In this document: positions 10,488-53,690 of the stretch, in pieces
How positions within the stretch are numbered: the first letter of the stretch is position 1
Layout: each line of letters starts with the position of its first letter
Assembly (NCBI RefSeq): GCF_015169395.1
Contig: NZ_CP063458.1
Location: 6,696,001-6,760,000 of the forward strand
DNA: 64,000 bases
Origin: Humisphaera borealis
Lineage (GTDB): Bacteria; Planctomycetota; Phycisphaerae; Tepidisphaerales; Tepidisphaeraceae
Reading direction: 5' to 3'
The notes under the pieces: model-generated
Databases searched by the model: none
What the model was told of the DNA's origin: nothing
Seen by the model: only the letters and a program-made list of their open reading frames with translations
Position numbers and translations under genes: made by a program

Positions 10488-10544
10488 GGCTGCTCCTTGA
10501 CGCCGATCCTATCAGGCCGCCACCACCAGAACAGGTCGTCGCCC

Positions 10545-11119: not shown

Positions 11120-11202
11120 CCCGGTCACAACCTACAACCCGTAGTGTGTCCGCAGACAGATTCGACAACCCCGCCGCCCCCCTTCATTCGCACCAGATCC
11201 GC

Positions 11203-12360: not shown

Positions 12361-12386
12361 ATGCTGTTTGCCGGCCTGGCTTGGCG

Positions 12387-12535: not shown

Positions 12536-12550
12536 CTGAACCGGCGAGGT

Positions 12551-13987: not shown

Positions 13988-13997
13988 CGCGTCTCTT

Positions 13998-14042
13998 TCC
14001 CCCTCTCCCCTGTACTCGGGGGAGAGGGTTGGGGTGAGGGGC
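13998..14042. repeat. Short palindromic repeat, CTCTCCCC...GGGGAGAG type
   Basis: CCCCTCTCCCC and GGGGGAGAGG arms flank TGTACTC, followed by GGTTGGGGTGAGGGG. In the minus frame it would be read as LTPTLSPEYRGEGE, a phrase found as spurious protein starts in many bacterial genomes. It lies just upstream of the DUF1501 start. Confidence 0.75.
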
Positions 14043-14063
14043 CGAACCGAGACAACGGGAGTC

Positions 14064-14178
14064 TTTAAGGAGCCGCGCACGGAGTGTACTCACGAAGTAA
14101 GCGGGAACCGTGACGGTCCGGGCCCCATCCCGCTTACTGCGTGAGTACACTCCGTGCGCGGCTCCTCAAGAAATCACA
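14064..14178. repeat. Palindromic repeat family A, copy 2
   Basis: Same arms as 8855-8982 with a few changes (CACGAAGTAAGC, CTTACTGCGTGAG). It sits between the co-oriented cytochrome/DUF1553 and DUF1501 genes and is flanked on the right by a GAGGTACTCCGAAGA motif that also occurs at 20.08 kb. Confidence 0.9.
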
Positions 14179-14223
14179 ACCTCTGAGGTACTCCGAAGAA
14201 CCTACGCACAGGGCAGAGCAGGA

Positions 14224-16554
14224 TCAATCCACATACACAAACTCATTACTGTTCATCAGCACGTGGCACAAATCCGCCAGCGCCAGCTTCGCCGATTCAT
14301 CCCGCTTGCCGGCTTCCTTATGCATCGCCGTCTGCTGCGCGACGAACGCCGTCGCGTCCTTCAATCGCTCGGCGTCGATCGGGCGGGCCAGGGCCAGTTC
14401 GTACGCGAGCGCGATCTGGCCGGGGATGTCGTTGGGCACCGCGCGCTGGACTCGTACTGCGAAGTACCGCGCCTGCTCGTTCACGAACTCATCGTTCATC
14501 AGTACCAGCGCCTGCGTCGGCACCGTGCTCACGCCTCGCTCACTGCACATCTGGCTGTTTTCCGGGGCGTCGAAGAGTTCGAGGATCGGCAGCCGCAACT
14601 GTCGCTTGGCGTAAACATAGACGCTCCGCCGCCAGTGCTCGCTCGACTCCTTCGTCACGGTCGGCCACTTGTTGCGCTGGCTGGCGACGAGCAGTTCCGG
14701 CGGGATTCGCGGCTTGATGCCGGGGCCGCCCATCGTGTCATTCAGGTTCCCCGAGACCGCCAGCACCGCGTCGCGAACCGCCTCGGCCTCGAGCCGGCGT
14801 TTGCCCATCCGCCATAGCAGCCGGTTCTCAGGGTCGGCAGCGAACGCGCCCTCGCTGAACTGCGACGACTGCTGGTACGTCGCCGACGTCATGATGAGCC
14901 GGTGCATCGGCTTGAGCTGTCCGCCGCGGGCGACGAGTTCCGTCGCGAGCCAGTCGAGCAGGAGCGGATGGGTCGGCCGTTCGCCGCTGAGGCCGAAGTT
15001 GCTCGTCGTCGGCACGATGCCCCGGCCGAAATGATGCTGCCAGAGGCGATTGGCCATCACGCGCCAGGTCAGCGGGTGGTCCGGCGACGCGAGCCATCGC
15101 GCCAGCTCCGCCCGGCGGCCGGTGGAGGGCGCGTCCTTCGCCGGCTCGGCAAAGTGGGCGGCGACCGACGCCAGCGCGACGGGCACGCCGGGCTGCACTT
15201 CCGGGCCGATGTTCTTCCAGTCGCCGCGCCACAGCAGGTTCGTCTTGCGCGTTTTGGCCGAGGTTTCGACCATCGCCATGATCGCCGGGGCTTTGGGGTC
15301 GGGCTTGGCGGGTTTGGTAGCGGGTTTGGTAGCGGGCGCGGTGGTCGCCCCGGGAGCGCGGAGCCCCAGCTCCGCATTTTTGCCGGCGGAGCTGGGGCTC
15401 CGCGTTCCCAGGACCGGCCTGCCCGCGGCATCGAGCGAGACTTCTTTCTTCGTCGCGCTGTTAAAGACCGCCAGCAGCCGGTAGTAATCGGTCTGCGGGA
15501 TGGGGTCGTACTTGTGGTCGTGGCAGCGGGCGCAGCCGATCGTCAGGCCGAGAAAGACTGCCGACGAGGTGGAGATCAGGTCGTCGAGTTCATCGAGGCG
15601 GTGCTTCTCGGCCTCCTGGCCCATGTTGTCTTCGTTGCTCGGCCCGTTGCGGCAGAAGCCCGTCGCGGCAAGCGCGCCAGCGTCTCCTGGTGCAACTTCA
15701 TCACCGGCGAGCTGCTCGGCGATAAACCGGCCGTACGGCTTGTCGGCATTGAAGCTGGCGATCACGTAGTCGCGATAACGCCAGGCATTGGGGCGATCGA
15801 GGTCGTTGTGAAAGCCGGAGGAGTCGGCGTACCGCGCCAGGTCGAGCCAGTGACGCGCCCACCGCTCGCCATACCGTGGCGAAGCCAGCAGCCGGTCGAT
15901 CAGCTTCTCGTAGGCGTCGGCGGAATCGTCGGCGACGAACGCGCGAACCTCTTGCGGCGTCGGTGGCAGGCCGGTCAGGTCGAACGTCGCCCTGCGGATG
16001 AGCGTCACCCGATCCGCCGTCGGCGACGGCTTCAATCCCCTGGCCTCCAGCTCGGCCAATACGAACGCATCGATCGAATTGCGCGCCCACGCCTTGTCCT
16101 TCGTGGCTGGCGGATCGACGCGTTTCATGGGCTGAAACGACCAGTGATTCTGCGAGGGTAATGTCGTCGGCGCGGCCGGCGGCGCAGTGGCCTTCAGGCC
16201 GTTAATCCATTGGGCGATCGTGGCAATATCATCCGCCGCCAACTGCTTCTTCGGCGGCATGTGCGGGTCGGACTTGGCGTCGAGCAGCTGAACCAGCAGG
16301 CTCTGCGAAGCCGCCCCGGCGACAACGACGGGGCCGGAACTCGCGCCTTCGAGCACCTTCGCGCGCGAGGTCAGGTCCAGACCCGACTTCTTCTTCGCGC
16401 CACCGTGGCACTCGACACAGTGGGCGGCCAGGACGGGTTGGACGGATTTGTCGAAGGCGGGATCGATGTCGGCGGCGCGGGTGGCGGACGACAACGCACT
16501 GAAGGCGAATATGATCAGGCAGGCGCGGAAAGTGTCTGTCCGTAGTCGATGCAC
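14224..16554 (-). CDS. Planctomycete cytochrome c-DUF1549-DUF1553 protein
   Basis: A 776-aa protein with start MHRLRTDTFRACLIIFAFSA at 16554, a signal peptide. Next comes a PSCyt1-type cytochrome domain with the heme c site C46-V-E-C49-H50, then a WSFQPM stretch opening the DUF1549 (PSCyt2) domain (about 150-360) and a C-terminal DUF1553 (PSD1) domain (about 480-750) with RELAN-like features such as WRVMANRLWQHHFGRG and STVPTQALVLMND. A second CxxCH (CARCHDH) lies within DUF1549. It is predicted to act outside the cytoplasm, possibly in electron transfer linked to degradation of large substrates. It is co-directional with the DUF1501 gene at 12551-13987. Confidence 0.95.
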   Translation of the reverse strand: MHRLRTDTFRACLIIFAFSALSSATRAADIDPAFDKSVQPVLAAHCVECHGGAKKKSGLDLTSRAKVLEGASSGPVVVAGAASQSLLVQLLDAKSDPHMPPKKQLAADDIATIAQWINGLKATAPPAAPTTLPSQNHWSFQPMKRVDPPATKDKAWARNSIDAFVLAELEARGLKPSPTADRVTLIRRATFDLTGLPPTPQEVRAFVADDSADAYEKLIDRLLASPRYGERWARHWLDLARYADSSGFHNDLDRPNAWRYRDYVIASFNADKPYGRFIAEQLAGDEVAPGDAGALAATGFCRNGPSNEDNMGQEAEKHRLDELDDLISTSSAVFLGLTIGCARCHDHKYDPIPQTDYYRLLAVFNSATKKEVSLDAAGRPVLGTRSPSSAGKNAELGLRAPGATTAPATKPATKPAKPDPKAPAIMAMVETSAKTRKTNLLWRGDWKNIGPEVQPGVPVALASVAAHFAEPAKDAPSTGRRAELARWLASPDHPLTWRVMANRLWQHHFGRGIVPTTSNFGLSGERPTHPLLLDWLATELVARGGQLKPMHRLIMTSATYQQSSQFSEGAFAADPENRLLWRMGKRRLEAEAVRDAVLAVSGNLNDTMGGPGIKPRIPPELLVASQRNKWPTVTKESSEHWRRSVYVYAKRQLRLPILELFDAPENSQMCSERGVSTVPTQALVLMNDEFVNEQARYFAVRVQRAVPNDIPGQIALAYELALARPIDAERLKDATAFVAQQTAMHKEAGKRDESAKLALADLCHVLMNSNEFVYVD

Positions 16555-16597
16555 ACACGCTGCTACCGGGGGTTGGGTGGAAGCGTTGCCCAGGATC

Positions 16598-16703
16598 GGT
16601 TAGCCGCGACCCGAAGGGGAGCGCGACGAACACCAACGACCACCACCGTCCAGCGACGTCCGACTTCCGCGCCGTCGCGCTCCCCTTCGGGTCGCGGCTA
16701 ACC
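16598..16703. repeat. 31-bp perfect inverted repeat
   Basis: Arms 16598-16628 and 16673-16703 (core TTAGCCGCGACCCGAAGGGG) flank a 44-bp loop. The repeat begins 43 bp upstream of the cytochrome gene start and ends 4 bp before the stop of the ABC ATPase gene, so it nearly fills the gap. Its sequence is unrelated to families A and B. Confidence 0.85.
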
Positions 16704-16707
16704 AGGC

Positions 16708-17481
16708 TCACAACCCCGTCACCACCACCGGCGGTTTGCCTTCGCGGTCAATCCGTTCCATCGGCACGCCGTACACCCTCTCGAGCAGTGTCGGCTGAAG
16801 GACTTGCGATACCGTTCCTTCGGCGGCCACCCGGCCGTCGGCGAGGAGCACCAACCGGTCGGCAAACATGCCGGCGAGGTTGAGGTCGTGAGACGCCAGC
16901 AGCACGCCAATGCCGCGTTCCCGCGCCCACCGCCGCAGCAGGCGGGCGAGCTCGACCTGGTGCTTGAGGTCGAGAAAGGTGTTGGGCTCGTCGAGAAGCA
17001 TCGCGCGGGGTTCTTGCACGAGGCACCGGCCGAGGAAGACACGCTGTCGCTGCCCGCCGGAGAGTGCCGACATGCGACGGCCGAGCAGTTCGGTCAGTTC
17101 CAGGTCGGCCGCCGAGCGCTCAACGACTTCGGCATCGCGCGGGGATTCGAGCCCGAACGCGCCCCAGTAGGGCGACCGGCCCAGCGAGAGCGCATCACGC
17201 ACGGTTTGCGTTGCATCCCACAACGGCGTTTGTGGAAGATAGGCCGCCGTTCGGGCCAAGGCGCGCGGTTGCCACTGCGGCAGCGGTTTACCGTCCCAGG
17301 TGATCGATCCCGTGGTGGTCGCGAGTTGCCCCAGAAGGCACCGCAGCAGCGTGCTCTTGCCCGAACCGTTGGGTCCCAGGAGTGCAACAATCTCACCGGC
17401 GGCGAGCGAGAGGGACAGCTCGCGCAGCACAGGCGTCGCGCCGTAAGAGGAGGTGAGATTGGTTGCGTTGAGTAGTGTCAG
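16708..17481 (-). CDS. ABC transporter ATP-binding protein, iron-siderophore/cobalamin type
   Basis: Energises uptake through the FecCD permease encoded next door. Walker A GPNGSGKST, Q-loop YLPQTP, signature LSGGQRQR, Walker B AMLLDEP and the switch ASHD are all intact. The first familiar start is GTG 17430, but that truncates the conserved first strand. Reading upstream gives LTLLNATNLTSSYGATPVLR from a CTG at 17481, with AAGGAG 9 nt before it, so I take CTG as a likely start (257 aa). The SD lies at the very edge of repeat family B. Operon order is binding lipoprotein, permease, ATPase. Substrate could be a ferric siderophore, heme or B12; no riboswitch is visible. Confidence 0.9.
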   Translation of the reverse strand: MTLLNATNLTSSYGATPVLRELSLSLAAGEIVALLGPNGSGKSTLLRCLLGQLATTTGSITWDGKPLPQWQPRALARTAAYLPQTPLWDATQTVRDALSLGRSPYWGAFGLESPRDAEVVERSAADLELTELLGRRMSALSGGQRQRVFLGRCLVQEPRAMLLDEPNTFLDLKHQVELARLLRRWARERGIGVLLASHDLNLAGMFADRLVLLADGRVAAEGTVSQVLQPTLLERVYGVPMERIDREGKPPVVVTGL

Positions 17482-17493
17482 ATGACAGTTCTC

Positions 17494-17649
17494 CTTTTAG
17501 CGCCATCCCCGAAGGGGTGGGCTCGGCGCAGATTGCGCGACGATCAGAATGAACCCGACAGCGCTCATCATTCCCGTCGATCCATCTCGAACTTCTCTAT
17601 CCGTCGCACGGGTCGCGCCGATCCCACCCCTTCGGGGATGGCGCTAAAA
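17494..17649. repeat. Palindromic repeat family B, complete copy 1
   Basis: Arms TTTTAGCGCCATCCCCGAAG...GTGGG (from 17494) and the reverse complement (17623-17649) enclose about 100 bp. The same arms with a different centre are found at 63641-63776. It lies between the permease and ATPase genes of one operon. Confidence 0.9.
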
Positions 17650-17680
17650 AGGGTAGTCACATCGGTGACCGATCCACTCA

Positions 17681-18709
17681 TCACCCGCGGCGCGTCTTCA
17701 GCAACAGCATCAGGAAAAACGGTCCACCAACCAATCCCGTGAGAACGCCGACCGGCAGTGCCGTCCCCGCAGCGCCGGGACGGGAGAGCACTCTCGTCGC
17801 TGCATCGGCGACCGCAAGCAATCCGGCACCCAGCGCCGTGGCCAGCGGCAGCAGCTTGCGGGGGTCGTTGCCGACGAGCAGTCTCGCCAGGTGCGGGCAG
17901 ACGAGGCCGACGAAACCGATCGGCCCGCTGACCGACACCGCCGCCGCCGTCACCAGGCTCGCGACGATCAGCGCGGTCCACCGCAGGCGGTTCACGCGAA
18001 CGCCCAGGGCTTCGGCCTCGGCGTCGGACAGGGCGGCGACATGCAGCTTGCCGCCGGCGTAGAGCATGACCGCCCAGCCGATCGCCACGCAAACGGCGGC
18101 GGCGACCTTGTGGCCGGTTGGCAGCGTCTGCTGCAAGCCGCCGACGAGCAGCGCGAGCGGTCCGCCGGGGGTGGCGGGGTCTTTCACGAGCGCGTTGAGC
18201 AGCAGGAAGACGGCACCGTTGACGGCATTGACGATCACGCCGACGAGCAGAAGCGTGACGGGTTCCAGCCGGCCGCGCTGCGTCGCCAGCAGAAAGACGA
18301 TGGCTACCGTTGCCACCGCGCCGACGAAAGCGAACACCTGCTGGCCGAGATACTGCTCGCCGGCCATGAACGCGAGCAGGGCGGTCGCCGCGGGAAACTG
18401 CCAGAGGTACGAGAACAGCGTCGCACCGGAACTGACGCCAAGCAGGTAAGGGTCTGCGAGCGGGTTTCTAAGAACCGCCTGGTAGACGACGCCGGCCGAA
18501 GCGAGCGCCGCGCCGACGAGCGAGGCGAGAAGCACGCCGTCCAGGCGAATGCGGTAGATCACACGGTCGGCAGGCCAGGCAATCTGTCCGGTCGACCCGA
18601 CGGCCAGGCACGCCGCGGCGAGCAGCATCCAGACGGCGACGCTAAGCAGCAGTGTGACGAAGAGGCGGCGTCCGCTCCACCGCGCATCGCCGGAGGCGAG
18701 GGAGGTCAT
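17681..18709 (-). CDS. FecCD-family ABC transporter permease
   Basis: A 342-aa polytopic membrane protein with start MTSLASGDARWSG at 18709. About ten hydrophobic segments, with the family motifs RLDGVLLASLVGAALASAG, NPLADPYLLGVSSGA and GPIGFVGLVCPHLARLLVG near the ATPase-coupling region. This family imports ferric siderophores, heme or cobalamin. The start codon overlaps the stop of the binding-protein gene in an ATGA, a sign of translational coupling. Downstream, the ATPase gene is separated by a family-B palindrome. Confidence 0.95.
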   Translation of the reverse strand: MTSLASGDARWSGRRLFVTLLLSVAVWMLLAAACLAVGSTGQIAWPADRVIYRIRLDGVLLASLVGAALASAGVVYQAVLRNPLADPYLLGVSSGATLFSYLWQFPAATALLAFMAGEQYLGQQVFAFVGAVATVAIVFLLATQRGRLEPVTLLLVGVIVNAVNGAVFLLLNALVKDPATPGGPLALLVGGLQQTLPTGHKVAAAVCVAIGWAVMLYAGGKLHVAALSDAEAEALGVRVNRLRWTALIVASLVTAAAVSVSGPIGFVGLVCPHLARLLVGNDPRKLLPLATALGAGLLAVADAATRVLSRPGAAGTALPVGVLTGLVGGPFFLMLLLKTRRG

Positions 18710-19980
18710 GCGGCCTCCGGCGTGGAAGAGATCACCACGGAGGCACGGAGACACGGAGGGCAGCGCGCAGCATGTCGCTCCCACTTGTCATCCTGAGTCC
18801 TCACGCGGCGCGACGCACCCGCGTGCGATGAAAACATCTCCGGTGCCACGGGTCGGCGGTACTCCGCAGACCCGTGCGCGAGTCGGGCCAAGACACGGGT
18901 CTCCGGAGTACCGGCGACCCGTGGCACCGGTTCGCGAGTCACTTTCAGAACAGGTACCCCGAATGGCCCCAGGATGACAGATGGCAACATGCTCCAGGTT
19001 GCCCTCCGTGTCTCCGTGCCTCCGTGGTGATCTCTTTCCTCGTTTGCCGACTTCTCCGGATGCAATGCCGCCGCAAACCGCTCGGCGATGTTGCCCACGT
19101 TCAGTCCCGGCCAGAGCAGATATTCCTCGGTCAGATAATGGACCTGTCCCGCGTTCTGTGCCGCGACCGGCATCGTCTGCCAGAAGTCCCTGGCCTTGGC
19201 GACCACCTGTGGCGACGCGGCGGGAAGCAGGTTCAACACGGCATCGGGGTTCAGGTTCAGCAGCAGCTCGCGGTCGAGGGTGGGATAGCTGTTGTCGTCG
19301 TAGCCGGGACCGGAAAGCACGTTCTTCCCGCCGGCGATCGTCAGGACGTCGTCCAGAAAGTTCCCGCCGCCGACGGCTTCCAGCGGGGTGTCGGTTCGGC
19401 TGATGAGCGTCCGCACCGGCGGCTTGCCGGCGACGCGCGCCGCGACCGCCGTCAGTTGCGCGCGGAGCTTTGTCGCGGCGGCCGTCGCCTTGGCAGGTTC
19501 GCCGATCGCCGTGCCGAGTTGGTCAAGTGCCTTATAGATATGGTCCAGGCGGTTGATCTCGACGTTGATCAGCCGAATGCCATAGCCCGCCGCCCGGTCG
19601 GCCAGGCCGGTGGGCATCTTGTCGGCGCGGAACTGGACGATCAGCACGGCCGGCCGAAGCTCGGCGATCTTCTCCCAGTCGATGGTCCGATAATCACCGA
19701 CGCCCGGCAGGTCGCGCGTTTCGCCGCGGGTCTGATCGAAGTTGCTGACGGCGACCAGGTGGTCTTTGGCACCCATGCCCACGATCAGGTCTGTCGCCGC
19801 CGGCGAGATGGAGGCGACCGTCACTTTGCCCGGCGAGGTGGCGGGGTTCTGCGCCGATCTGCGGTCGCAACCGACGACGGCCCCCACGACGACGACCAGG
19901 CAGAAACAAAGTACCACCACCGAGCCCCAAGCCCCGCGGCAACCGGCGGCAGAGCTTTGATTTAGGGTCGGAATCGCCAT
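18706..19980 (-). CDS. Periplasmic-binding lipoprotein of FecCD-type ABC transporter, with repeat-derived C-terminal tail
   Basis: A 424-aa frame with start MAIPTLNQSSAAG at 19980 (ATG 20010 is possible). A long hydrophobic stretch ends in a VVGC lipobox. Two helical-backbone BtuF/FhuD lobes follow, with ASISPAATDLIVGMGA, TIDWEKIAELRPAVLIVQ and LLLNLNPDAVLNLLPA. The expected protein ends around LHPEKSANEE. The frame then continues for about 107 codons through nested palindromic repeats (HHGGTETRR ... CPPCLRASVVISS) and stops in an ATGA overlapping the permease start. Function as the substrate-binding component is clear; the tail is almost certainly repeat-encoded. Confidence 0.88.
   Translation of the reverse strand: MAIPTLNQSSAAGCRGAWGSVVVLCFCLVVVVGAVVGCDRRSAQNPATSPGKVTVASISPAATDLIVGMGAKDHLVAVSNFDQTRGETRDLPGVGDYRTIDWEKIAELRPAVLIVQFRADKMPTGLADRAAGYGIRLINVEINRLDHIYKALDQLGTAIGEPAKATAAATKLRAQLTAVAARVAGKPPVRTLISRTDTPLEAVGGGNFLDDVLTIAGGKNVLSGPGYDDNSYPTLDRELLLNLNPDAVLNLLPAASPQVVAKARDFWQTMPVAAQNAGQVHYLTEEYLLWPGLNVGNIAERFAAALHPEKSANEERDHHGGTETRRATWSMLPSVILGPFGVPVLKVTREPVPRVAGTPETRVLARLAHGSAEYRRPVAPEMFSSHAGASRRVRTQDDKWERHAARCPPCLRASVVISSTPEAA
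18727..19034. repeat. Three nested palindromes inside the 3' end of the binding-protein gene
   Basis: Outer arms (18727-18762 and 18999-19034) have the core CACGGAGGCACGGAGACACG. Middle arms are TGTCATCCTG (18786-18795) and its complement (18970-18979). Inner arms (18841-18875 and 18893-18930) have GGTGCCACGGGTC and match imperfectly. The three layers look like successive insertions of repeat DNA at the centre of an older palindrome. Confidence 0.85.
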
Positions 19981-20079
19981 TGCCGCAGAGCGTAGAAGCG
20001 ATCGAGGCATGGTGTCAAACCGAGGTGCGACCAGGGATCGGCGCAGACACTCCAAGGGTCATGCAGCTTGCAAGAGCCC

Positions 20080-20147
20080 GAGGTACTCCGAAGCGCCGGA
20101 TTCTCGTCGTGATCGAGCCCTGTGAATCCGGGTCCTCGGAGTACCTC
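20080..20147. repeat. 24-bp imperfect inverted repeat
   Basis: Arms 20080-20103 and 20124-20147 (core GAGGTACTCCGA, then CCGGATTC) lie upstream of the binding-lipoprotein gene and the divergent gene at 20264. The GAGGTACTCCGA core also follows family A copy 2 at about 14185. Confidence 0.8.
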
Positions 20148-20263
20148 AGACCCCGGCGTCGCAACGGCGCGAATGGTGCGAGACTTCACGCAGTTCCGCG
20201 CAATCCAACTTTCACACGATTCCATTCAAGAATCCCGGTTGTCGTGGACCGATAGTTTTCAGC

Positions 20264-21205
20264 ATGACAACCCTCAGCACACTCATCGGAGCGTCTCATC
20301 CGTCCTTCGGTCTCGGCGGGTCGGCTGGGGCGAAGTCTGGTTTCTGGAAGCGTATCGGCGGCGTCTTCCGGTGGCGCCGTAACAGCGCGGCCGAACTCGG
20401 ATCCGAACGAAGCACTGCCGAGTCGGAAGCCAACGACGAACAGACCGAGGTCGCCGTCGCGGCCGCCGCGATGAACAAGGTCGTCGATGACGACGAACTC
20501 GACGCGCTCGGTTTTGAGCTGCAGCCTCACGGTGCCCACACGATTGACGAAGACCTCGACGCCGGGTTCGGCGACCTGCTTCCCCCGGAACCGCCGTCCC
20601 GCCGCCAGGTCCGCACCAACAGCAAGCCCGACTCGGCGGTTGACGAAGTCCGTGCCGGCATGAGCGCACTGGCGTCGCTGCTCACCGGCATCCAGCAGCA
20701 CATGGAGAAGCAGGACGCCCGCCAGGAAGAGCTCGCCGAGCGGCAACGCGAAGTCGTCGCCTGCCTGAGCCACCTGCCGATGGCGTCGGCGATCCAGAAT
20801 GAATCGCTGTCGGCGATTCGCGAACAAATCACCCAGGGCGTCGCCACGCAGACGCGCCTCTGCTCGGCCCTCGAGCGCCTCGGCGGCCTGCAGGAGACGA
20901 CCGGCGACGCGCTGACGTCGATCACCCGGCGCATCGACCAGATGGACGCCCGCGACGCGAATTTCGCCAGCAGCATGGAGAAGGTGTGCGATGCGATGCA
21001 GACCGTCAGCCGGGCGAGCGAAACCGGCGCGATCGTGCTGGAACGCGTCCGCAACACCCTCGCCAGCCAGCAGGACGGCATCAGCACCACCCTCGACAAG
21101 CACCAGAACCGGTTCAACGCACTGATGGCGGTTGCGATCGCGGTCTCTGTCGCCGCACTGGCGGTGGTCGCGGGTGTGGGATATTTGGTGCTGTCTAAGC
21201 TGTGA
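20264..21205 (+). CDS. Hypothetical coiled-coil protein with C-terminal membrane anchor
   Basis: A 313-aa protein with no family I recognise. Residues 1-40 are Gly/Ser-rich with a basic patch (WKRIGGVFRWRR). Residues 45-125 are acidic and Pro-rich, probably disordered. Residues 130-285 are long heptad-like helices with many Gln/Glu/Arg (MEKQDARQEELAERQREVV and later TTLDKHQNRFN). The last 25 residues are strongly hydrophobic (ALMAVAIAVSVAALAVVAGV) and end in SKL, giving a tail anchor. The layout suggests a cytoplasmic scaffold tethered to the membrane. It is divergent from the ABC transporter operon. Confidence 0.75.
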   Translation: MTTLSTLIGASHPSFGLGGSAGAKSGFWKRIGGVFRWRRNSAAELGSERSTAESEANDEQTEVAVAAAAMNKVVDDDELDALGFELQPHGAHTIDEDLDAGFGDLLPPEPPSRRQVRTNSKPDSAVDEVRAGMSALASLLTGIQQHMEKQDARQEELAERQREVVACLSHLPMASAIQNESLSAIREQITQGVATQTRLCSALERLGGLQETTGDALTSITRRIDQMDARDANFASSMEKVCDAMQTVSRASETGAIVLERVRNTLASQQDGISTTLDKHQNRFNALMAVAIAVSVAALAVVAGVGYLVLSKL

Positions 21206-46260: not shown

Positions 46261-46334
46261 GGGCGTTTAGCTCAGTTGGTTAGAGCACCAGCTCGACACG
46301 CTGGGGGTCACAGGTTCGAGTCCTGTAACGCCCA
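46261..46334 (+). tRNA. tRNA-Val (anticodon GAC)
   Basis: Seventy-four bases fold as a cloverleaf: acceptor GGGCGTT/AACGCCC with discriminator A, D-arm GCTC/GAGC, anticodon stem CCAGC/GCTGG and T-arm ACAGG/CCTGT with loop TTCGAGT. The anticodon loop is TCGACAC, so GAC occupies 46295-46297. Position 33 is C instead of the near-universal U. The 3' CCA is not encoded. Its 3' 42 bases are the attachment site of the element that follows, so the present 3' end came with the integrated DNA. Confidence 0.92.
46293..46334 (+). other. attL of the tRNA-Val integrative element
   Basis: The 42 bases from the anticodon loop to the discriminator are repeated exactly at 53507-53548. The flanking bases differ on both sides, so the repeat length is exactly 42. 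Confidence 0.92.
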
Positions 46335-46400
46335 CTTACTTAAGTGTCTGCCGAGCCTTTACTTAAGGCACCTGCCTGTGTCGGGCAGAGCGGCCAGAAG

Positions 46401-46445
46401 CGAACCGGGAAAACGGAATCTTCCGTCTTCCCGGTTCGTCTTTTT
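46401..46445 (+). terminator. Intrinsic terminator of the tRNA gene
   Basis: CGAACCGGGAA...ACGGAA pairs with TTCCGT..TTCCCGGTTCG, followed by TCTTTTT. It separates the tRNA transcript from the integrase, whose SD lies directly behind. Confidence 0.85.
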
Positions 46446-46458
46446 GGAGCTCTGCCTT

Positions 46459-47745
46459 ATGCCTAAGCTCAAATCGAACGAAATTCCGTCCTATCGCCGG
46501 CACAAGCAGTCCGGCCAGGCGATCGTCACCTTAAGCGGCCGCGACATTCTTCTCGGCGAGTTCGGAACGAGAACCAGCCGCGACGCCTACGACCGGGCCG
46601 TGGCCGAGTGGATCGGGAATGGCCGCCGCTGGCCGGAGCGTGAAGCCGACCTGTCGGTGGCCGAACTACTCACCCGCTTCTGGGAGCACGCCGCAAGGTA
46701 TTACGGCGACAGCCGGGAGCTCGACAACTTCCGGCACTCCCTACGCACCCTCCGAAAGCTCTACGAAGACACGTCCGCGTCAGCCTTCGGGCCGCTGGCG
46801 CTGAAGACCGTCCGCGACGCTCTGATCCGCGAGAACCTCTCCCGCAACTACGTCAACCAGTGTGTGGCCCGGATCCGGCGCGTCTTCCGGTGGGCGGCGG
46901 AGAACGAACTCGTGCCGTCCTCGGTCTTTCACGGATTGCAGGCCGTATCGGGATTGCGGAAGGGGCGGACCGCCGCCCGGGAGTCGCAGCCCGTCCGGCC
47001 GGTCGGTGATCACACCATCGACGCGACCCTGCAACACCTCTCGCCGACGCTCAAGGCCATGGTGCAGCTTCAGCTACGGACCGGCATGCGGCCAGGAGAG
47101 ATCTGCATGATGCGAACTTGCGACCTCGACACCACCGGCAAGGTCTGGTCGTACTCGCCGCCCGAGCACAAGACCGAACACCACGGCCACGTCCGCACGA
47201 TCTGGATCGGTCCTAAGGCCCAGGAGGTTCTTCGGCCGTTCCTCCGATTCGATACCCAAGCGTTCGTTTTCTCCCCCCTGGAGGCCGACGCCGAGTGGCG
47301 GGCGGCAAAGCGGGCAGCCCGCAAGACCGGCGTGCCGCCGTCGCAGCTACGCCGGGCGGAACGGTCCGCCGCCCGGGAGCGAGCCCGGCCGCCGGGCGAC
47401 CGCTACGACGTCAACGGTTACCGGCGGGCGATCGCCCGGGCCTGCGATGCCGCGTTCACGCCTCCCGAGCGCCTCTGCCCTCGAATCGTGGGTAGGCGGC
47501 GGGAATCCAAGCAGGCCTTCCTTCGGCGGCTGACAGCCGATGAGCTCGCCGAGCTACGCCGCTGGCAGCGGGACCATCGTTGGCACCCGCACCAACTGCG
47601 GCACTCGGCCGCCACCTATCTGCGCAAGGAATACGGGATCGAGGTCGCCCGCGTCGTGCTCGGCCACCGGTCGGCGGCGGTCACCGAAGTTTACGCCGAG
47701 ATGGACATGGCCAAAGCCAAAGAGGTGATGGCGGCGGTCGGCTAG
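46459..47745 (+). CDS. Tyrosine recombinase/integrase of the tRNA-Val element
   Basis: A 428-aa site-specific recombinase. Start MPKLKSNEIPSYRRHKQSG at 46459 has GGAG about 9 nt upstream; an upstream extension would read through the tRNA. The N-terminal region is an arm-binding domain, followed by a SAM-like core-binding domain (VAELLTRFWEHAARYY) and the catalytic domain. Catalytic residues: R211 (TGMRPGE), H378 and R381 (HQLRH), H403 (LGHRS) and Y412 (VYAEMD). An insert of about 70 aa rich in Arg separates the first Arg from the HxxR box. It likely catalyses integration at the 42-bp tRNA-Val site. Confidence 0.95.
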   Translation: MPKLKSNEIPSYRRHKQSGQAIVTLSGRDILLGEFGTRTSRDAYDRAVAEWIGNGRRWPEREADLSVAELLTRFWEHAARYYGDSRELDNFRHSLRTLRKLYEDTSASAFGPLALKTVRDALIRENLSRNYVNQCVARIRRVFRWAAENELVPSSVFHGLQAVSGLRKGRTAARESQPVRPVGDHTIDATLQHLSPTLKAMVQLQLRTGMRPGEICMMRTCDLDTTGKVWSYSPPEHKTEHHGHVRTIWIGPKAQEVLRPFLRFDTQAFVFSPLEADAEWRAAKRAARKTGVPPSQLRRAERSAARERARPPGDRYDVNGYRRAIARACDAAFTPPERLCPRIVGRRRESKQAFLRRLTADELAELRRWQRDHRWHPHQLRHSAATYLRKEYGIEVARVVLGHRSAAVTEVYAEMDMAKAKEVMAAVG

Positions 47746-47772
47746 GGGACGCCGCGGCGTGATGTTGCTGAA

Positions 47773-47809
47773 GCTCGGCGGATTGACCTCCGGCGGGCTT
47801 TTTCTTTTT
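47773..47809 (+). terminator. Probable intrinsic terminator after the integrase
   Basis: GCTCGGCGGA and TCCGGCGGGC pair imperfectly around a short loop and are followed by a TTTTTCTTTTT tract, 28 bp after the integrase stop. Confidence 0.65.
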
Positions 47810-47973
47810 CCCGGCAGGGGTCACGGCGGCAACCTCGGTCTCAGAAAAAAAACCTCAATTTTGGCGTTTCCTGCGACAAGGGTGTCGGGATCGCAGTTCA
47901 GAGTGAAAAGGTGCGTGGTATTAAGCACCGGACAGTGCATTGCGACCGGACAAGTAACCTGACGAGGCATGCC

Positions 47974-48840
47974 ATGCTCAAAGAATCCCCTCACCCACTT
48001 CTCGGCAGATTGGCAAATATCAACTCTATGGCGGCTCGGTTACAGGATCCGGTCGAGAGGGCCATGGGTCTGATCGACACCAAACGCCTGCCAATTGCCA
48101 GGATAGAGCGGGTTGCTCTTTGGGTAGGTGGCAAGCCTTCACCCAAAGTGAGGGCGGAATTGAACAAGGAATGCCCGGGTTTCAGCGTTGATGACGAGGT
48201 AGCACCTTACAACAAGCGGCTGAAATGCTACTTGGACCTTCGCACCCCCTCGCGAAAAGCGTTGGTTCTCATCGACGTGTTGGCCCGTAAACATCGTCGA
48301 AGTGCCCTGGACCGCCTGGTCGTCTCACTCACGGTTCCGACGCGTGGCCTTGCCGCGGCCGACGAACTGAAGGAGTGGCTCGATGCACGGATTGTTTGCG
48401 GACTGGATCATTTGCCCTCACTAGGACAGATGACCGGCGTCGGCCACTTTGCCTGTACCGATATCGCGGTGTCGTCGGCGGTCGCGTGTAACGGCGTGCC
48501 CGGCGTACAGGTAATTGTTGAACTTCGCGGGGAGAGAGCAATTGATCGAAGCGGACTTACTCACCCAAAAATGCTGCACAGGTTCCGAGCAGATCCCTTC
48601 CTTAAGTCATGCCTCTCCCTTTTTGAGATCGATTATCTTGCCTTAGCCCGGAGATACTTCCCGGCCGAGACTTCCATGGTCTACCGTCGCCGGGTCGCGG
48701 CAATCCTGAAGCGGGCCTATCCAACCATCCGCGAGCTTGCGACTACCTGCAAGGGTGCTGGGCAATGGGGTCATCAGACGCCACGGAGATTGCCATTGCA
48801 GCACCTGATCAAGGGTGTGTCGTGGAACCTTGCCTCATGA
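47974..48840 (+). CDS. Hypothetical protein of the integrative element
   Basis: A 288-aa protein with start MLKESPHPLLGRLANINSM at 47974 and GAGG upstream. It shows an ordered alpha/beta composition: a basic YNKRLKCYLDLRTPSRKALV segment, a central LDRLVVSLTVPT strand, VQVIVELRGERAIDRSGLTH and a C-terminal helical region rich in Arg/Leu. The VELRGERAIDRSG piece faintly recalls the 'IEWRL-A-RR-G' region of replication-initiation proteins on other integrative elements, but catalytic residues cannot be assigned. Its place behind the integrase would suit a replication or mobilisation role; this is inference. Confidence 0.55.
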   Translation: MLKESPHPLLGRLANINSMAARLQDPVERAMGLIDTKRLPIARIERVALWVGGKPSPKVRAELNKECPGFSVDDEVAPYNKRLKCYLDLRTPSRKALVLIDVLARKHRRSALDRLVVSLTVPTRGLAAADELKEWLDARIVCGLDHLPSLGQMTGVGHFACTDIAVSSAVACNGVPGVQVIVELRGERAIDRSGLTHPKMLHRFRADPFLKSCLSLFEIDYLALARRYFPAETSMVYRRRVAAILKRAYPTIRELATTCKGAGQWGHQTPRRLPLQHLIKGVSWNLAS

Positions 48841-48950
48841 GTGACCAATCTTTCTCAAAGTCTCGTAACCTCTTGAACCCCGAATAACTGGGTTTACGAT
48901 ATTCAGGCTAGATGTATCGCTCAGCGTTTGCTGAGGCATCAGCCTGTTCA

Positions 48951-48970
48951 ACCTGACCATGTGGTCAGGT
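48951..48970. promoter_or_regulatory. 20-bp operator-like palindrome
   Basis: ACCTGACCA-TG-TGGTCAGGT is a perfect inverted repeat 92 bp upstream of the DUF1580 gene. A second small palindrome, GCTGA-GGCA-TCAGC, lies just before it. It may be an operator or a short hairpin. Confidence 0.5.
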
Positions 48971-49062
48971 CCTGCCGAGAAATCACGTGGTAGTGCAGCC
49001 CGTTAACTCAAGACCCGGTGGTGAGCATCGGGTGGTAGGCCCCTTGAGGGCGAGGTGCTGAG

Positions 49063-49371
49063 ATGGCGATCAATTTGCACAGCGAGAACATCATCCACAT
49101 AGGGGAAGTTCCGAAGTTGCCCTTCATGAAGGGTCGCGGCCGGCGATTGTCCTGCGCGACGCTGTACCGGTGGATCAATAACGGTTTGCGTGGCGTGAAG
49201 CTTGAGACCGTGCTGATCGGTGGAAGCCGGTGCACATCAGTCGAGGCATGCGAGCGCTTCATAGGCGCTACGCAAGGTGGCTCCCCCGCACCGGCGGCCT
49301 GTCGGACGGCGTCGCAGCGGACGAAGGCCGTAGACGCAGCGAAGCGTCAACTCGATGCATTTGGGATCTGA
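49063..49371 (+). CDS. DUF1580 protein, probable excisionase-like factor
   Basis: A 102-aa protein starting ATG 49063 with GAGG upstream. It has the DUF1580 pattern: PKLPFMKGRGRRLSCATLYR, WINNGLRGVKLETVLIGGSR and CTSVEACERFI. The fold resembles a MerR/excisionase winged helix. DUF1580 is largely planctomycete-specific and frequent near tyrosine recombinases, so a recombination-directionality role for this element is likely though unproven. A perfect hairpin follows the gene. Confidence 0.85.
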   Translation: MAINLHSENIIHIGEVPKLPFMKGRGRRLSCATLYRWINNGLRGVKLETVLIGGSRCTSVEACERFIGATQGGSPAPAACRTASQRTKAVDAAKRQLDAFGI

Positions 49372-49386
49372 TATTCGGAAGACAGA

Positions 49387-49418
49387 GGCCCGCGTTCCTT
49401 CCTAGGGGAACGCGGGCC
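49387..49418 (+). terminator. Strong hairpin after the DUF1580 gene
   Basis: GGCCCGCGTTCC and GGAACGCGGGCC are perfect 12-bp arms around an 8-nt loop, 15 bp after the stop. There is no T-tract, so termination may be factor-dependent. Confidence 0.6.
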
Positions 49419-49433
49419 GGATTCGGCAGGGAC

Positions 49434-50450
49434 ATGGCAATGGCACCTACCACTGATGGGAATACCCCGCAGTTGATTCTTGACGCACCAGTAGTTCCGT
49501 TGCGGGTAAGGCACTACTGCGACTTCATGGAAGTTACGCTGAAGAAGGGGCTTCGCAACGAGCACTGTCGGTTGCTGAATGACTTAGTGAAACCCCATGC
49601 CGGCCGACCTGATAAGGACCGCCTGTGGATTCGGCCCACATGGAAGAATGTCGTACGTGTGCGTCAGCCTACCGTCGACGAACTGCTCATTCTGGATCGG
49701 CTCATTCCGTCTGACGAGACCAGCCCTGTGACTCTTGCGGAATTTGCCTACGACTTCTTCCCAAATGATGGAGAGCTTGAGGCTCTCACCCAATTCATGG
49801 CGAATTCGGTCGTATTCCCTCAGGGTGTTGGCGGAGGGAGTAATCCCAGACCCTATCGCACTGTCGTCTATTTCGCACCAAACGATGCGCCCGTCAGGCC
49901 CAAGTTTTACGCTGATCTTCCGTCGAAGCTCGTGCCGAACGGACGGCGCGTTCCCCACCTCTGCTACTGCGTTGATGGGAGAACTCTGGACGATTGGGGA
50001 GTGCGCCGCCCTACGGACTATTCCCACAATTTTGATAGCCGCGGCTTCCTATCCACTCACCTTCGCCTGGTGAATGGCAACCTGGATCGGCTGCTTGCAA
50101 GGGCCGCACCAGTCCTAACGTTCCGTCGTCCATGTCTTGACATTACAAGGATGCTGCGGCGTCATCTTTCATTGGTCACTTGGTCCCTTGATGGCTGCGC
50201 ACCTGGTCAAGGCGTGTACGACTACCTACGTGACTTCCCTGCATTACCTCCGGAGTTCTACGAACTGGGTCCCTTCCTTCCGGAGGCAACCCCGGTCATC
50301 CCGAACGAAATTCCTTGCCAGCCATTTTCGAGTTGTCCACCGGTCACTGGACCAAAACCGCCGGATCGGCAAGGCCGGCGTCGGTGCCGACGTGGACCCC
50401 GACCAACACACAGCGTCTGCCCGTCCTTCACCTCACAACGGCACTCCTGA
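49434..50450 (+). CDS. Hypothetical protein of the integrative element
   Basis: A 338-aa protein; start ATG 49434 (or ATG 49440 in the same frame). The main body has LRVRHYCDFMEVTLKKGL, an acidic FAYDFFPNDGELEAL, YRTVVYFAPNDAPVRPKFY and a DWGVRRPTDYSHNFDSRG segment, suggesting a mixed alpha/beta enzyme. No family is recognised. The final ~60 codons overlap the convergent gene ending at 50258 and are Arg/Pro-rich (RQGRRRCRRGPRPTHS), so this tail may be accidental read-through. A role in replication or transfer of the element is possible but unsupported. Confidence 0.55.
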   Translation: MAMAPTTDGNTPQLILDAPVVPLRVRHYCDFMEVTLKKGLRNEHCRLLNDLVKPHAGRPDKDRLWIRPTWKNVVRVRQPTVDELLILDRLIPSDETSPVTLAEFAYDFFPNDGELEALTQFMANSVVFPQGVGGGSNPRPYRTVVYFAPNDAPVRPKFYADLPSKLVPNGRRVPHLCYCVDGRTLDDWGVRRPTDYSHNFDSRGFLSTHLRLVNGNLDRLLARAAPVLTFRRPCLDITRMLRRHLSLVTWSLDGCAPGQGVYDYLRDFPALPPEFYELGPFLPEATPVIPNEIPCQPFSSCPPVTGPKPPDRQGRRRCRRGPRPTHSVCPSFTSQRHS

Positions 50451-51274
50451 TGGACCGCCGTCCGGGGATCCTTGATGCCTTCCAGCAGATAGTCGATCAG
50501 ATAGGCGCGAAGTTGGGATTCGTCGATGAACCGGGCGTCCGGAGAGCACGCGATGTCAATCCAGTTGTTCGCGTCAATGTCACGGAAGCTCACGCCGCCC
50601 GGGCGGGCGATCGCAAGGTAGGGCGGCAAGTCGTTCGTCTGTGCCAGCAGTCCCTTCAGTCCGGAGAAAGAGCTGCCATGAAGTGGCGTGAAGGTTCCGC
50701 CCGGATTGATCTTGATGTGACTGCCGAACTCCGAGTCCCGTAAGGGATTCTTGAAGATGTGAACGTCACCGATCGGGGCGTAGATGTTGTTCCGCCAGTG
50801 GCGATCGGCGTCGCCCTTCTGAAATGCAGCCCCGCCGATCACCTCTGTGCAGCCGAAGATGGTGCCGGCGTATCGCTCCGCCACGGCAAGTTGGTCGTTG
50901 AGGTAGTCGATGCTTGTCTGAAGGCCTTTGCCTTCTTCGCCCCATTCCTCATTGTCTGGTCCCTTCGCCGCCGACAGGAACCGCTCAATTCGAAGCTTTG
51001 CCCGTTTCGTATGGTAGAAGAACATCACATCTCCGGTGGTCATCCACCGAGGGGCGCTATAGGTTCGGTCGTGGCCCTTGGCAGTATCGAGGAGGAGTTC
51101 CATCTCCATGTAGCCACCGCCGGCGTTGTACGCTCGACGAAGTTCAGGAAGAGTGGACGGAAAGCTGACGTGGGCGACACAGGACTGAACATAACGGTCG
51201 CCCATTGCACCGGATAGGCGACCGTCGTGTTGGACAGTCGCAGTTCGTCGCCGCCGTCCTTGTGCCTTCCCCAT
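50258..51274 (-). CDS. Hypothetical protein, third gene of an XRE-led module
   Basis: A 338-aa protein with start MGKAQGRRRRTATVQHDG at 51274; 16 nt separate it from the 92-aa gene upstream. Recognisable pieces: YNAGGGYMEMELLLDTAKG, a GDVMFFYHTKRAKLRIERFL segment that recalls PUA/EVE-like nucleic-acid-binding folds, IYAPIGDVHIFKNPL and a CSPDARFIDESQLRAYLIDYL helix. The family is not recognised. The last ~65 codons overlap the convergent gene and are Arg/Gly-rich. Position behind a controller-type XRE gene suggests an immunity or restriction function; inference only. Confidence 0.55.
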   Translation of the reverse strand: MGKAQGRRRRTATVQHDGRLSGAMGDRYVQSCVAHVSFPSTLPELRRAYNAGGGYMEMELLLDTAKGHDRTYSAPRWMTTGDVMFFYHTKRAKLRIERFLSAAKGPDNEEWGEEGKGLQTSIDYLNDQLAVAERYAGTIFGCTEVIGGAAFQKGDADRHWRNNIYAPIGDVHIFKNPLRDSEFGSHIKINPGGTFTPLHGSSFSGLKGLLAQTNDLPPYLAIARPGGVSFRDIDANNWIDIACSPDARFIDESQLRAYLIDYLLEGIKDPRTAVHQECRCEVKDGQTLCVGRGPRRHRRRPCRSGGFGPVTGGQLENGWQGISFGMTGVASGRKGPSS

Positions 51275-51290
51275 CAGTGACCTCCGCATG

Positions 51291-51569
51291 CTATGTGTCG
51301 TCTGGTGGACTCTCTGACGGTAGCCGCTCTGGTACTCGTCCATGCTGTGCAACTAGCTTCTCTACCAGTCGCTCATCGTCTGATCGCCAGATTTCTTCGA
51401 CCCACTGGATCCTTCGATAAACGACCGGCGTCTCGTCATGGTGACGTACTGTCAGAACTCGATCTGACGGAGGTTTAACGAGAACGGGGCCGAAATCATA
51501 GCCGCTCGTCCCCTCAACCCAACCCCGCGGTGTGAGGTGCCAGTCGAAGTATTCATTGCTTAAGGACAT
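51291..51569 (-). CDS. Small hypothetical protein, second gene of the XRE-led module
   Basis: A 92-aa protein starting MSLSNEYFDWHLTPRGWVEG at 51569. It is acidic, with several Trp residues (RRIQWVEEIWRSDDERLVEK), probably a compact beta-alpha fold. No family name is known to me. It sits between the XRE gene (58 bp upstream) and the 338-aa gene (16 bp downstream), all on one strand, so it is likely part of one operon. Confidence 0.65.
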   Translation of the reverse strand: MSLSNEYFDWHLTPRGWVEGTSGYDFGPVLVKPPSDRVLTVRHHDETPVVYRRIQWVEEIWRSDDERLVEKLVAQHGRVPERLPSESPPDDT

Positions 51570-51627
51570 CCCGATCCTCGGTGGTTTGCAGCATCTGACT
51601 TGGTTCGAACGCTGCAGGCGGGGGAGG

Positions 51628-51837
51628 TCACTTCTTCAAAGAAATTGCCGGCATCAATGCCGCCGGCTGAACCCGAAGCGCCAGTGCCAGCCGCTCAATG
51701 GTCTCAATCCGGACCGATCGCTGTCCCCTCTCGATCAGGCTGATATGGGTGCGGTGCAGCCCGGCCGAGTCGGCCAACGCTTCCTGAGACATGCCCCGCG
51801 ATTCCCGTAGGTCGCGAACGATCCCTCCGAACTTCAT
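51628..51837 (-). CDS. XRE regulator resembling a restriction-modification controller protein
   Basis: A 69-aa single-domain HTH protein with start MKFGGIVRDLRESRGMSQEA at 51837; an upstream extension is unlikely. The helix pair SQEALADSAGLHRTHISLIE followed by RGQRSVRIETIERLALAL closely follows controller (C) proteins of type II R-M systems and small phage repressors. It leads the operon with the 92-aa and 338-aa genes. A C-protein role would predict delayed expression of a nuclease-like downstream gene, but no methylase is found here. It is divergent from the lipoprotein gene. Confidence 0.88.
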   Translation of the reverse strand: MKFGGIVRDLRESRGMSQEALADSAGLHRTHISLIERGQRSVRIETIERLALALRVQPAALMPAISLKK

Positions 51838-51959
51838 TGCGAACCGGGTACCTGCCACGCTTGACGAGCATCCGGGCGAAGGGGTAGACCGGGCCACAGA
51901 CAATGCGCAACATCGCCCCGTCCCGGCCGTGCCGGGTCTCGGTGACGCAAAGGAGGCCC

Positions 51960-52547
51960 GTGATAGCTCACACTCGGTTCACAGCGTTGGTCAGCATCTT
52001 CGTCCTTCAAGGATGTGTCTCGCGTCCGCCGGTGAAGTCACTTGAGGAGATAAGTGCCCCCTGGTACACGCCGGAGTTCGCGACCACGGAACACACGACG
52101 GCAGAGCAAGTCGCGGCGGCTACCAAATATGAGTGGGACCCTTATAAGCAACGGGAGTTAACCGCCTCACCACTTTTGAAGAATCGAGACCACACACCCA
52201 AGCTTGTCCATGCCGATCACTACCGCTTAGTCTTTCAAAGAACGGGCAACCTGCACGGGTACGCTATCCAGGTTTCACATGAGTCGACAGAATGGTACTT
52301 CCTTCAGGAAGCCCATGACCGACAGGGATCGGTTTTGAGAGTAGTCCTGACGGACCGCGAAGCCTCCCGAGGGGGCGTTTCTGAAGACCTCATCGTCCAA
52401 CTTGACCGGGAGTATCTGCAGGCGGCGGCGGCAGGAGGAGGGGTCGATATCCGCCTCGGCGGACAACGAGGCAATTGCCCTATCCGAGTCCCCGCTTACT
52501 TCGTCAAGGGCTTCCTATCCGCGGTGGACCAAGGACGATTGAAGTAG
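51960..52547 (+). CDS. Small lipoprotein of the integrative element
   Basis: A 195-aa protein. GTG 51960 follows AGGAGG by only 3 nt, a short spacing, but it gives a proper lipoprotein signal: VIAHTRFTALVSIFVL then a LQGC lipobox. The mature domain is mostly beta (YRLVFQRTGNLHGYAIQV, STEWYFLQEAHDRQGSVLRV) and ends VPAYFVKGFLSAVDQGRLK. No family is recognised. Divergent from the XRE module with a 122-bp shared intergenic region, so the XRE protein may control both directions. Confidence 0.65.
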   Translation: MIAHTRFTALVSIFVLQGCVSRPPVKSLEEISAPWYTPEFATTEHTTAEQVAAATKYEWDPYKQRELTASPLLKNRDHTPKLVHADHYRLVFQRTGNLHGYAIQVSHESTEWYFLQEAHDRQGSVLRVVLTDREASRGGVSEDLIVQLDREYLQAAAAGGGVDIRLGGQRGNCPIRVPAYFVKGFLSAVDQGRLK

Positions 52548-52591
52548 AGGGAGTCCGGACCCATGAGACCCGGACTCCCGCACCACGACGA

Positions 52592-53155
52592 TCAAAGGTT
52601 CTGCGGGTATTTCGCGGACTTCTTGTCAGGCCGCTTCTCGCCCAGCCTCCTGGTGCCCTCGGCAGCGGTGCCGTCCGGAGCCGCCTCCTCCCGCCAGACC
52701 TTCCCGACCACCTTTGCGTAGTGGGCGGTCAGTTCATCCGCGAGTTCCTTCTTCACCGTCGGGACCTTGCGGCCGTCCCGTCCGTTCTTGGCCTGAATGT
52801 GAACCGTCGTCGGGCTCGGGCTGAAGCCGAGGCTCGCCGCGACCGCCGTGATCGCGGGTTTTGGCCAGCCGATCGACGCGGCGTAGCGGATGAAGTCGCA
52901 CATCCCCAAGCCTCGCCAGTGCTGACGCGATCTACCTTCGGGCTTGGCCGTCCCGTCCGGGTCGGCGGCGGTGACCGGGTCGGTCCTTGCGAGTTCGACC
53001 GCCTCGGTTGCCGGGCCGGCATCGTCGACGGTAGGGGACTCCGTCACCTCTGCCGGCGGCGGCAGGGCCGTCTTCCGGGCGCGAGGTTTTGCCTTGGCCG
53101 GTCGCGGGTCGGTCGGGGCATCGGACTGCGGGGAGGGGTGCTGCTGAAGAGACAT
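52592..53155 (-). CDS. Hypothetical DNA-associated-looking protein of the integrative element
   Basis: A 187-aa protein with start MSLQQHPSPQSDAPTDPR at 53155 and AAAGGAG upstream. The first 80 residues are Pro/Ala/Lys-rich and probably disordered. Residues 85-145 form a likely small globular helical domain (MCDFIRYAASIGWPKPAITA, then VAASLGFSPSPTTVHIQAK), which looks like a helix-turn-helix. The tail is basic. The function is unknown; similar low-complexity-plus-HTH proteins occur in planctomycete genomes. It is the last gene before the right att site. Confidence 0.6.
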   Translation of the reverse strand: MSLQQHPSPQSDAPTDPRPAKAKPRARKTALPPPAEVTESPTVDDAGPATEAVELARTDPVTAADPDGTAKPEGRSRQHWRGLGMCDFIRYAASIGWPKPAITAVAASLGFSPSPTTVHIQAKNGRDGRKVPTVKKELADELTAHYAKVVGKVWREEAAPDGTAAEGTRRLGEKRPDKKSAKYPQNL

Positions 53156-53506
53156 CGAACGCTCCTTTCGGGAAGCTGCCTTGGCCGTCGTCGGACGGAC
53201 CGTAAAGGCTAAGCCTTACCCCTAGCGCGACCCGATGGCCCTGATAATCTGACCCGTTCGTTCCTTGGGCGAACTTGCCGCCGCTAGGTAGCGACCGCCG
53301 TACTTCGGGCGGCGTCTTGAGGCTCCGAGTCGGCGTCGCCAAGGCCCGGTTACCCCTAGGCCCGGCAAGACGGAATCTTCCGGCGATGGCCGGCAATTCC
53401 GCGATTTTTTGAGAATAAACGAGGTAGGTCGAGACGACTTGAACGGGCGGTCGAACGACGGTAAGATACGGCCAAATAATAGCTTCTGGTCGTTCGGCTG
53501 GGTAAA
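53156..53506. other. Right end of the integrative element
   Basis: No gene seen. It contains the upstream region of the 187-aa gene and an A/T-richer patch near 53400 (TTTTTTGAGAATAAACGAGG). Integrase arm sites would be expected here, but clear repeats were not found. Confidence 0.5.
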
Positions 53507-53548
53507 TCGACACGCTGGGGGTCACAGGTTCGAGTCCTGTAACGCCCA
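53507..53548 (+). other. attR: displaced 3' end of tRNA-Val
   Basis: An exact 42-bp copy of the tRNA-Val 3' part without the 5' half, i.e. the original chromosomal end pushed 7.2 kb away. A CCGCAAGGC...GCCTTGCGG inverted repeat at 53555-53607 follows and may be the tRNA's original terminator. Confidence 0.92.
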
Positions 53549-53690
53549 TTTCAACCGCAAGGCTTCATCTTTACAGCAATTAGAGCTGAATAGATGGGGC
53601 CTTGCGGCGTTTACGGGGGTGACATCTCGTTCAGCCGTCGCACCGCAGGTGCGTTGTGCTCCAGGCAGTTTGCATTTCAGGAGGAAGCTC

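Follow-up and report, generated by a model that had tools for sequence, protein, structure and literature searches.

Analysis of a 64,000 nt window of the Humisphaera borealis genome (contig NZ_CP063458.1, positions 6,696,001 to 6,760,000; positions below are counted from the first nucleotide of the window) led to a 7.2 kb integrative element established in the 3′ part of a tRNA-Val(GAC) gene (Table 1). Judged by its sequence, it is a precisely bounded, tRNA-targeted element of the tyrosine-integrase type, which is a known kind. We consider it highly probable that it is a site-specific element with its own integrase (Int, gene int) and that it belongs to a planctomycete family built on int, a DUF1580 gene and usually a replication gene.

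Element boundaries and the integrase family

A first-pass annotation, made from the sequence alone, had proposed a precisely bounded element between exact 42-bp direct repeats, and the same boundaries were recovered here. The two copies of the attachment (att) core are identical at 42/42 positions (44/45 when extended), with a spacing of 7214, and the core starts just before the anticodon and covers the last 42 nt of the tRNA gene. With up to 3 mismatches allowed, the 7,189,892-base single-contig genome contains the 42-mer at exactly two places, and its repeat match score of 42 compares with 9–11 for the best repeats in reversed or complemented sequence. Joining the flanks in silico yielded one intact tRNA-Val with exact ends, and no tRNA was found at the circle junction of the element. 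The GC (guanine plus cytosine) content is about 0.63 outside the element and 0.56–0.60 in its middle. The integrase starts 124 nt 3′ of the tRNA and was previously thought to possess a full catalytic set, which the alignment bears out (R211, K238, H378-x-x-R381, H403 and Y412); all of these residues are invariant among 17 relatives apart from H378, which is Asn in 2 of them.

Concerning the distribution of this integrase, a search of 160 genomes of the class gave a match in 70, and an alignment-based search of the genome collection gave 499 relatives. Among the best 80 of these 499, 79 belong to Planctomycetota and one to a metagenome-assembled genome (MAG) labelled Verrucomicrobia, so that the specificity to planctomycetes suggested by the first-pass annotation stands for the integrase family, which is almost confined there. 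A same-strand tRNA gene is located 94–180 bp upstream of the integrase in 66 of these 80 matches, with 13 isotypes represented, and most of the others begin at a contig edge. Pooling and de-duplication led to 91 distinct tRNA-linked integrase loci, in which tRNA and int are a median of 120 bp apart. Nine of them are bounded elements of 4–11 kb with perfect repeats of 42–43 nt running from the anticodon loop to the tRNA end, against a null maximum of 13. Specifically, these are the window element (7.2 kb, tRNA-Val), G007/L059 (9.1 kb, tRNA-Val), G008/L071 (5.8 kb, tRNA-Pro), G029/L077 (4.0 kb, tRNA-Arg(CCG)), G147/L085 (8.9 kb, tRNA-Val(TAC)), L152 (10.1 kb, tRNA-Pro, from Gemmataceae), L164 (positions 9807-20769, 10.9 kb, tRNA-Met, from a Pirellulales MAG), L181 (7.7 kb, tRNA-Arg) and L188 (9.7 kb, tRNA-Pro). 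The smallest, L077, consists essentially of int, a Rep_trans-like gene and DUF1580.

Two further integrases of the family are located in the H. borealis genome itself. The second (G000:C1:559693-560860, L052) has an internal TAG stop and lies beside tRNA-Val(CAC), as a decayed insertion, while the third (G000:C1:6862853-6864220, L051) lies beside tRNA-Gly(CCC) with no att repeat within 19 kb. Additionally, L152 harbors a second tyrosine recombinase (L152:18563-19729) at its right end.

Palindromic arms, promoter-like site and DUF1580

Both arms of the window element contain a palindrome, and such palindromes are best read as arm sites that are probably bound by the N-terminal domain of Int, as their covariation with it suggests. 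Across the family the centre of the palindrome lies 85.5 nt beyond the tRNA end (SD, standard deviation, 2.5; n = 74), while its distance to int has an SD of 17, and its score lies above the 99th percentile of shuffles in 82% of 90 loci. The bounded elements have a copy of the palindrome, or two half-sites (L152, L164), 119–152 nt before the far core; among the unbounded loci, a right-arm palindrome was found in L150 only. The sequence of the palindrome varies between elements, that of L181 being of the TACCGTTTT type. In a set of 59 loci less than 60% identical, evaluated with 1000 permutations, palindrome similarity correlated with the similarity of Int residues 1–60 (rho 0.553, reached in 0/1000 permutations) but not with that of residues 81–428 (rho 0.117, reached in 69/1000 permutations). 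Sliding windows along Int confined the signal to the first 60 residues. Furthermore, a half-site tail of GTTT or GTCTT accompanies 16/16 integrases with Leu4 vs. 5/43 of the others. Physical linkage as the cause of this correlation was tested and rejected, because DNA even nearer to the palindrome (rho 0.11–0.15) and the third positions of the codons for those N-terminal residues (−0.05) show little correlation. A link between palindrome and DUF1580 was also rejected (rho 0.16). Integrases of the lambda/Tn916 type have an N-terminal arm-binding domain, separate from the core-binding and catalytic domains, and several directly repeated arm sites; here there is instead one palindrome per arm at a near-symmetric distance. 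The bounded elements also have a second, loosely conserved hairpin (ACCTGCC...GGCAG.GCGGCC) about 35–60 nt after the tRNA, thus between tRNA and palindrome, which in the window lies at 46370-46395.

A promoter-like site facing the core was found in the right arm of 8/9 bounded elements. The end of its −10 box mostly lies 47–51 nt before the core (38 in the window element and 77 in L085), and its mean score is 8.28 vs. 6.17 for interior windows, a value not reached in 20,000 samples. In the circularised element, the predicted promoter would read through the circular attachment site (attP) into int. ICEclc and related integrative and conjugative elements (ICEs) target tRNA genes and have a far-end promoter that reads into int only in the circle. 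The window element is like ICEclc in its tRNA target and, as a prediction, in its far-end promoter directed towards int, but differs in having no conjugation genes.

The only copy of DUF1580 in the genome lies inside the element. It is present in 8/9 bounded elements (absent in L085) and in 47/91 loci, its usual place being after int and one variable gene. A structure model built from 39 sequences reached a predicted local distance difference test score (pLDDT) of 88. Plain Foldseek gave no significant match with this model. After re-alignment of the Foldseek candidates, a protein resembling small terminases ranked first together with the GIsul2 excisionase (Z 6.3, for GIsul2 over 56 residues), followed by BldC, the RdfS excisionase (Z 5.6), BmrR and lambda Xis (Z 4.6). 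There is thus moderate evidence that the modelled fold belongs to the Xis/MerR winged-helix group, and the protein is probably an excisionase.

Taken as a mechanism, the attP of the circular form would consist of the 42-nt core between two like palindromes, about 125–150 bp to either side of the anticodon loop. The N-terminal 60 residues of Int would bind both palindromes as arm sites, while the catalytic domain would exchange strands at a point that we place in the anticodon loop, and the tRNA would be restored by the incoming 3′ half. Integration would part int from the right-arm promoter-like site and place it behind the tRNA, and circularisation, with DUF1580 as the presumed excisionase, would rejoin the two. 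On this scheme the element may still be mobile at present.

Mobility and nature of the element

Several observations weigh against the proposed mobile int–DUF1580 element. Neither excision nor a circle has been observed, and no syntenic empty site was found in the genomes examined. Downstream sequence of at least 10.9 kb is available for 54 loci, of which nine are bounded; the others are taken as larger, decayed or provided with an att repeat that went undetected. The right-arm match is weak in 2/9 bounded elements (L152, L164). Finally, the Z-scores of the DUF1580 model, all below 8, are middling and concern a small common fold that is shared with BldC and BmrR.

Regarding the empty tRNA-Val site that the first-pass annotation had proposed to look for in relatives, about a dozen family genomes have the tRNA gene without an adjoining integrase, but none of them shares the host flanks. 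In total, about 18 family genomes contain tRNA-Val(GAC); a family integrase adjoins it in four (G004, G005, G015, G022) and a fragment in G002, while the remaining genomes have no family integrase within 1.5 kb. The single genome of the same genus is 65% complete and does not contain tRNA-Val(GAC). Host-flank synteny was tried and abandoned, as relatives of the flanking esterase have no tRNA nearby and the tRNA-Val(GAC) relatives have neither of the flanking genes. The same gene set was found nowhere else among the genomes examined, and thus the same genes without att repeats were not seen either.

The window element may plausibly be a phage satellite, which would leave the chromosome, replicate and rely on a helper phage for packaging in the manner of minimal satellites. 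In the phage-inducible chromosomal minimalist islands (PICMIs) of Vibrionaceae, excision or replication depends on int, alpA and prim, and AlpA is similar to excisionases (PMC10803314). The present family has a similar scale of 6–7 kb, defence cargo in some members and, in most relatives, the PICMI order of int, a variable gene, an Xis/AlpA-like gene and a primase slot (PMC10803314). It differs from PICMIs in targeting a tRNA instead of fis and in carrying DUF1580 instead of AlpA: in the window element the AlpA families PF05930 and PF12728 had no match, DUF1580 (PF07618) being found there. The slot after DUF1580 is occupied by DUF3987/PriCT/RepB primases in three of the nine bounded elements (L071, L164, L188), and in others by AAA_25/Toprim (L059), a DUF3854-containing protein (L181) or, weakly, a Rep_trans-like protein (L077). 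Against a satellite stands the window copy itself, in which Pfam and PHROGs recognised no primase (DUF3987 and DUF5906 included), terminase or capsid gene, and for which no helper phage is known.

Capsid-forming phage-inducible chromosomal islands (PICIs) have their own capsid and packaging genes. One relative, L164, looks from its gene content like the outline of such a capsid-forming satellite in planctomycetes, with matches to Terminase_4 (1e-25), Phage_capsid (1e-29) and CLP_protease (2e-23), while portal, large terminase and tail genes were not recognised in it. Its int, DUF3987, capsid, protease and small terminase within 10.9 kb are shared with capsid-forming PICIs (named in PMC11389934); it departs from them in having no recognised large terminase or portal, and the window element in the absence of all these head genes. 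The satellite origin raised by the first-pass annotation is consequently supported for the family, by primase/Rep genes, an excisionase-like gene and the head genes of L164, but is no more than plausible for the window copy, whose cargo has no informative relatives. We tentatively suggest, as a broader possibility, a phylum-wide family of planctomycete phage satellites in which the N-terminal domain of Int is swapped together with the palindromic arms, DUF1580 is the activating excisionase and replication and defence cargo vary, the window element being a member whose replication protein (ORF4) has gone unrecognised.

For the window copy, a self-contained integrative plasmid or cargo island is about equally likely as a satellite. 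Such an island, possibly for defence (Xre controller, ORF6, ORF5), would move rarely, by transformation or general transduction. It would suit the cargo, which is wholly different from one element to another, and the Xre gene of the window element, which is closest to restriction-modification controllers. In L085, a protein with a Cap4-nuclease domain is followed by a small one and then by an ABC-type ATPase, an arrangement similar to an ABC-3C defence operon; the GC content of L085 is 0.41 vs. 0.51 outside. Speaking against this possibility, PADLOC recognised no methyltransferase, nuclease or other defence gene in the window element. The mobilisable island that the first-pass annotation had offered as another option found no support, since no relaxase was recognised.

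It is improbable that the element is what remains of a larger prophage after loss of the structural genes. IMG/VR contigs, many of 18–48 kb, also carry the integrase family, and in six such contigs there are helicases, primases and ParB as well as a portal protein in at least one case; together with the defence-like operon of L085, this shows that the integrase serves several kinds of element, which also weighs against the satellite reading. However, the recombination module of the window element is fully intact (both cores, both palindromes, the promoter-like site and int), phage gene fragments are absent, and there are eight further intact elements of 4–11 kb. It is likewise improbable that the palindromes are operators of a dimeric int repressor rather than arm sites. 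In favour of operators, the left palindrome lies 12–30 nt before int in most loci; against them, its spacing is fixed relative to the att core and not to int, it recurs beside the far core, and its sequence changes with the Int N-terminus rather than with DUF1580.

Compared with the tRNA-integrated genomic islands of the Islander collection (PMC4383910), the site-specific element described here is alike in having a regenerated tRNA at one end, a displaced fragment at the other and a tyrosine integrase inside. Nothing differs in principle; the palindromic arms, DUF1580 and the near-confinement to planctomycetes are particular to the present family. The literature searched describes neither integrative elements in tRNA genes nor phage satellites for planctomycetes, nor any role for DUF1580. 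As far as that literature shows, arms that change with the Int N-terminus, DUF1580 as a probable excisionase and a capsid-coding relative are undescribed. The family supplies exact element ends and suggests an excisionase role for a domain of unknown function, while its 59 distinct integrase/arm-site pairs constitute a natural data set for reading and testing the code of arm-site recognition. The family might moreover provide tools for site-specific integration in a phylum where genetic tools are few.

Gene content and minor observations

As the first-pass annotation had noted, the window element bears no phage-structural or conjugation domain according to Pfam, PHROGs, NCBIfam and PADLOC; specifically, capsid, terminase, portal, tail and relaxase families had no match among its proteins. 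ORF2, ORF4 and ORF5 (ORF, open reading frame) have no relatives in 298 genomes of the class, nor among phages, plasmids and viral contigs. Across 392 genomes of the phylum ORF4 had no relative and ORF5 one marginal match, and peptide patterns revealed no relatives of ORF4 in 84,980 species genomes. A replication role is suspected for ORF4 solely because it occupies the primase/Rep slot. Its single-sequence structure model was discarded (pLDDT 32), and a “YxDxPSK” motif common to ORF4 and an L085 protein was a mere regular-expression resemblance and was not used as evidence. The putative lipoprotein and the 187 aa protein matched no domain family.

Table 1. Coordinates of the integrative element, its target and its genes in the window.
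Feature	Position	Strand	Basis or remark
Target gene tRNA-Val(GAC), regenerated as an intact copy at left end (attL)	46261..46334	+	ARAGORN (end 46335), flank joining
Left copy of 42-bp att core, from anticodon loop up to discriminator base	46293..46334	+	
Left arm palindrome CGAACCGGGAAAACGGAATCTTCCGTCTTCCCGGTTCG, putative integrase arm site	46401..46438	.	inverted repeat; centre 84 nt after tRNA
Tyrosine integrase, 428 aa	46459..47745	+	Pfam Phage_integrase (PF00589) 5e-16, phrog_1 1e-33, alignment
ORF2, ~288 aa, no assigned function	47974..48840	+	variable-gene slot, after int and before DUF1580
Winged-helix DUF1580 protein (102 aa), probably an excisionase / directionality factor	49063..49371	+	PF07618 3e-15, structure model
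ORF4, 338 aa	49434..50450	+	position; slot holding primase/Rep genes in relatives
ORF5, up to 364 aa, cargo without assigned function	50258..51352	-	likely start near 51274
ORF6, 92 aa, cargo	51291..51569	-	distant relatives on three plasmids
Xre/HTH_3 regulator	51628..51903	-	likely start near 51837; best PADLOC match: restriction-modification controller protein
Putative lipoprotein (LQGC lipobox), cargo	51960..52547	+	ORF call
187 aa protein, helix-turn-helix-like by eye only	52592..53155	-	ORF call
Right arm copy of palindrome core (GACGGAATCTTCCGGC)	53362..53384	.	core 53369-53384; 14/16 to left copy; centre 130 nt before right att core
Promoter-like site TTGAAC-17-TAAGAT, reads towards right att core	53439..53467	+	sequence score
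Right copy of att core (attR), displaced tRNA 3′ fragment	53507..53548	+	

The plasmids with distant ORF6 relatives are from Paraburkholderia, Janthinobacterium and Nostoc, and the function of all these relatives is unassigned. Finally, an ORF at 52932-53549 on the minus strand, beginning MGVTGLEPVTPSVS, is antisense to the displaced tRNA fragment and probably spurious.

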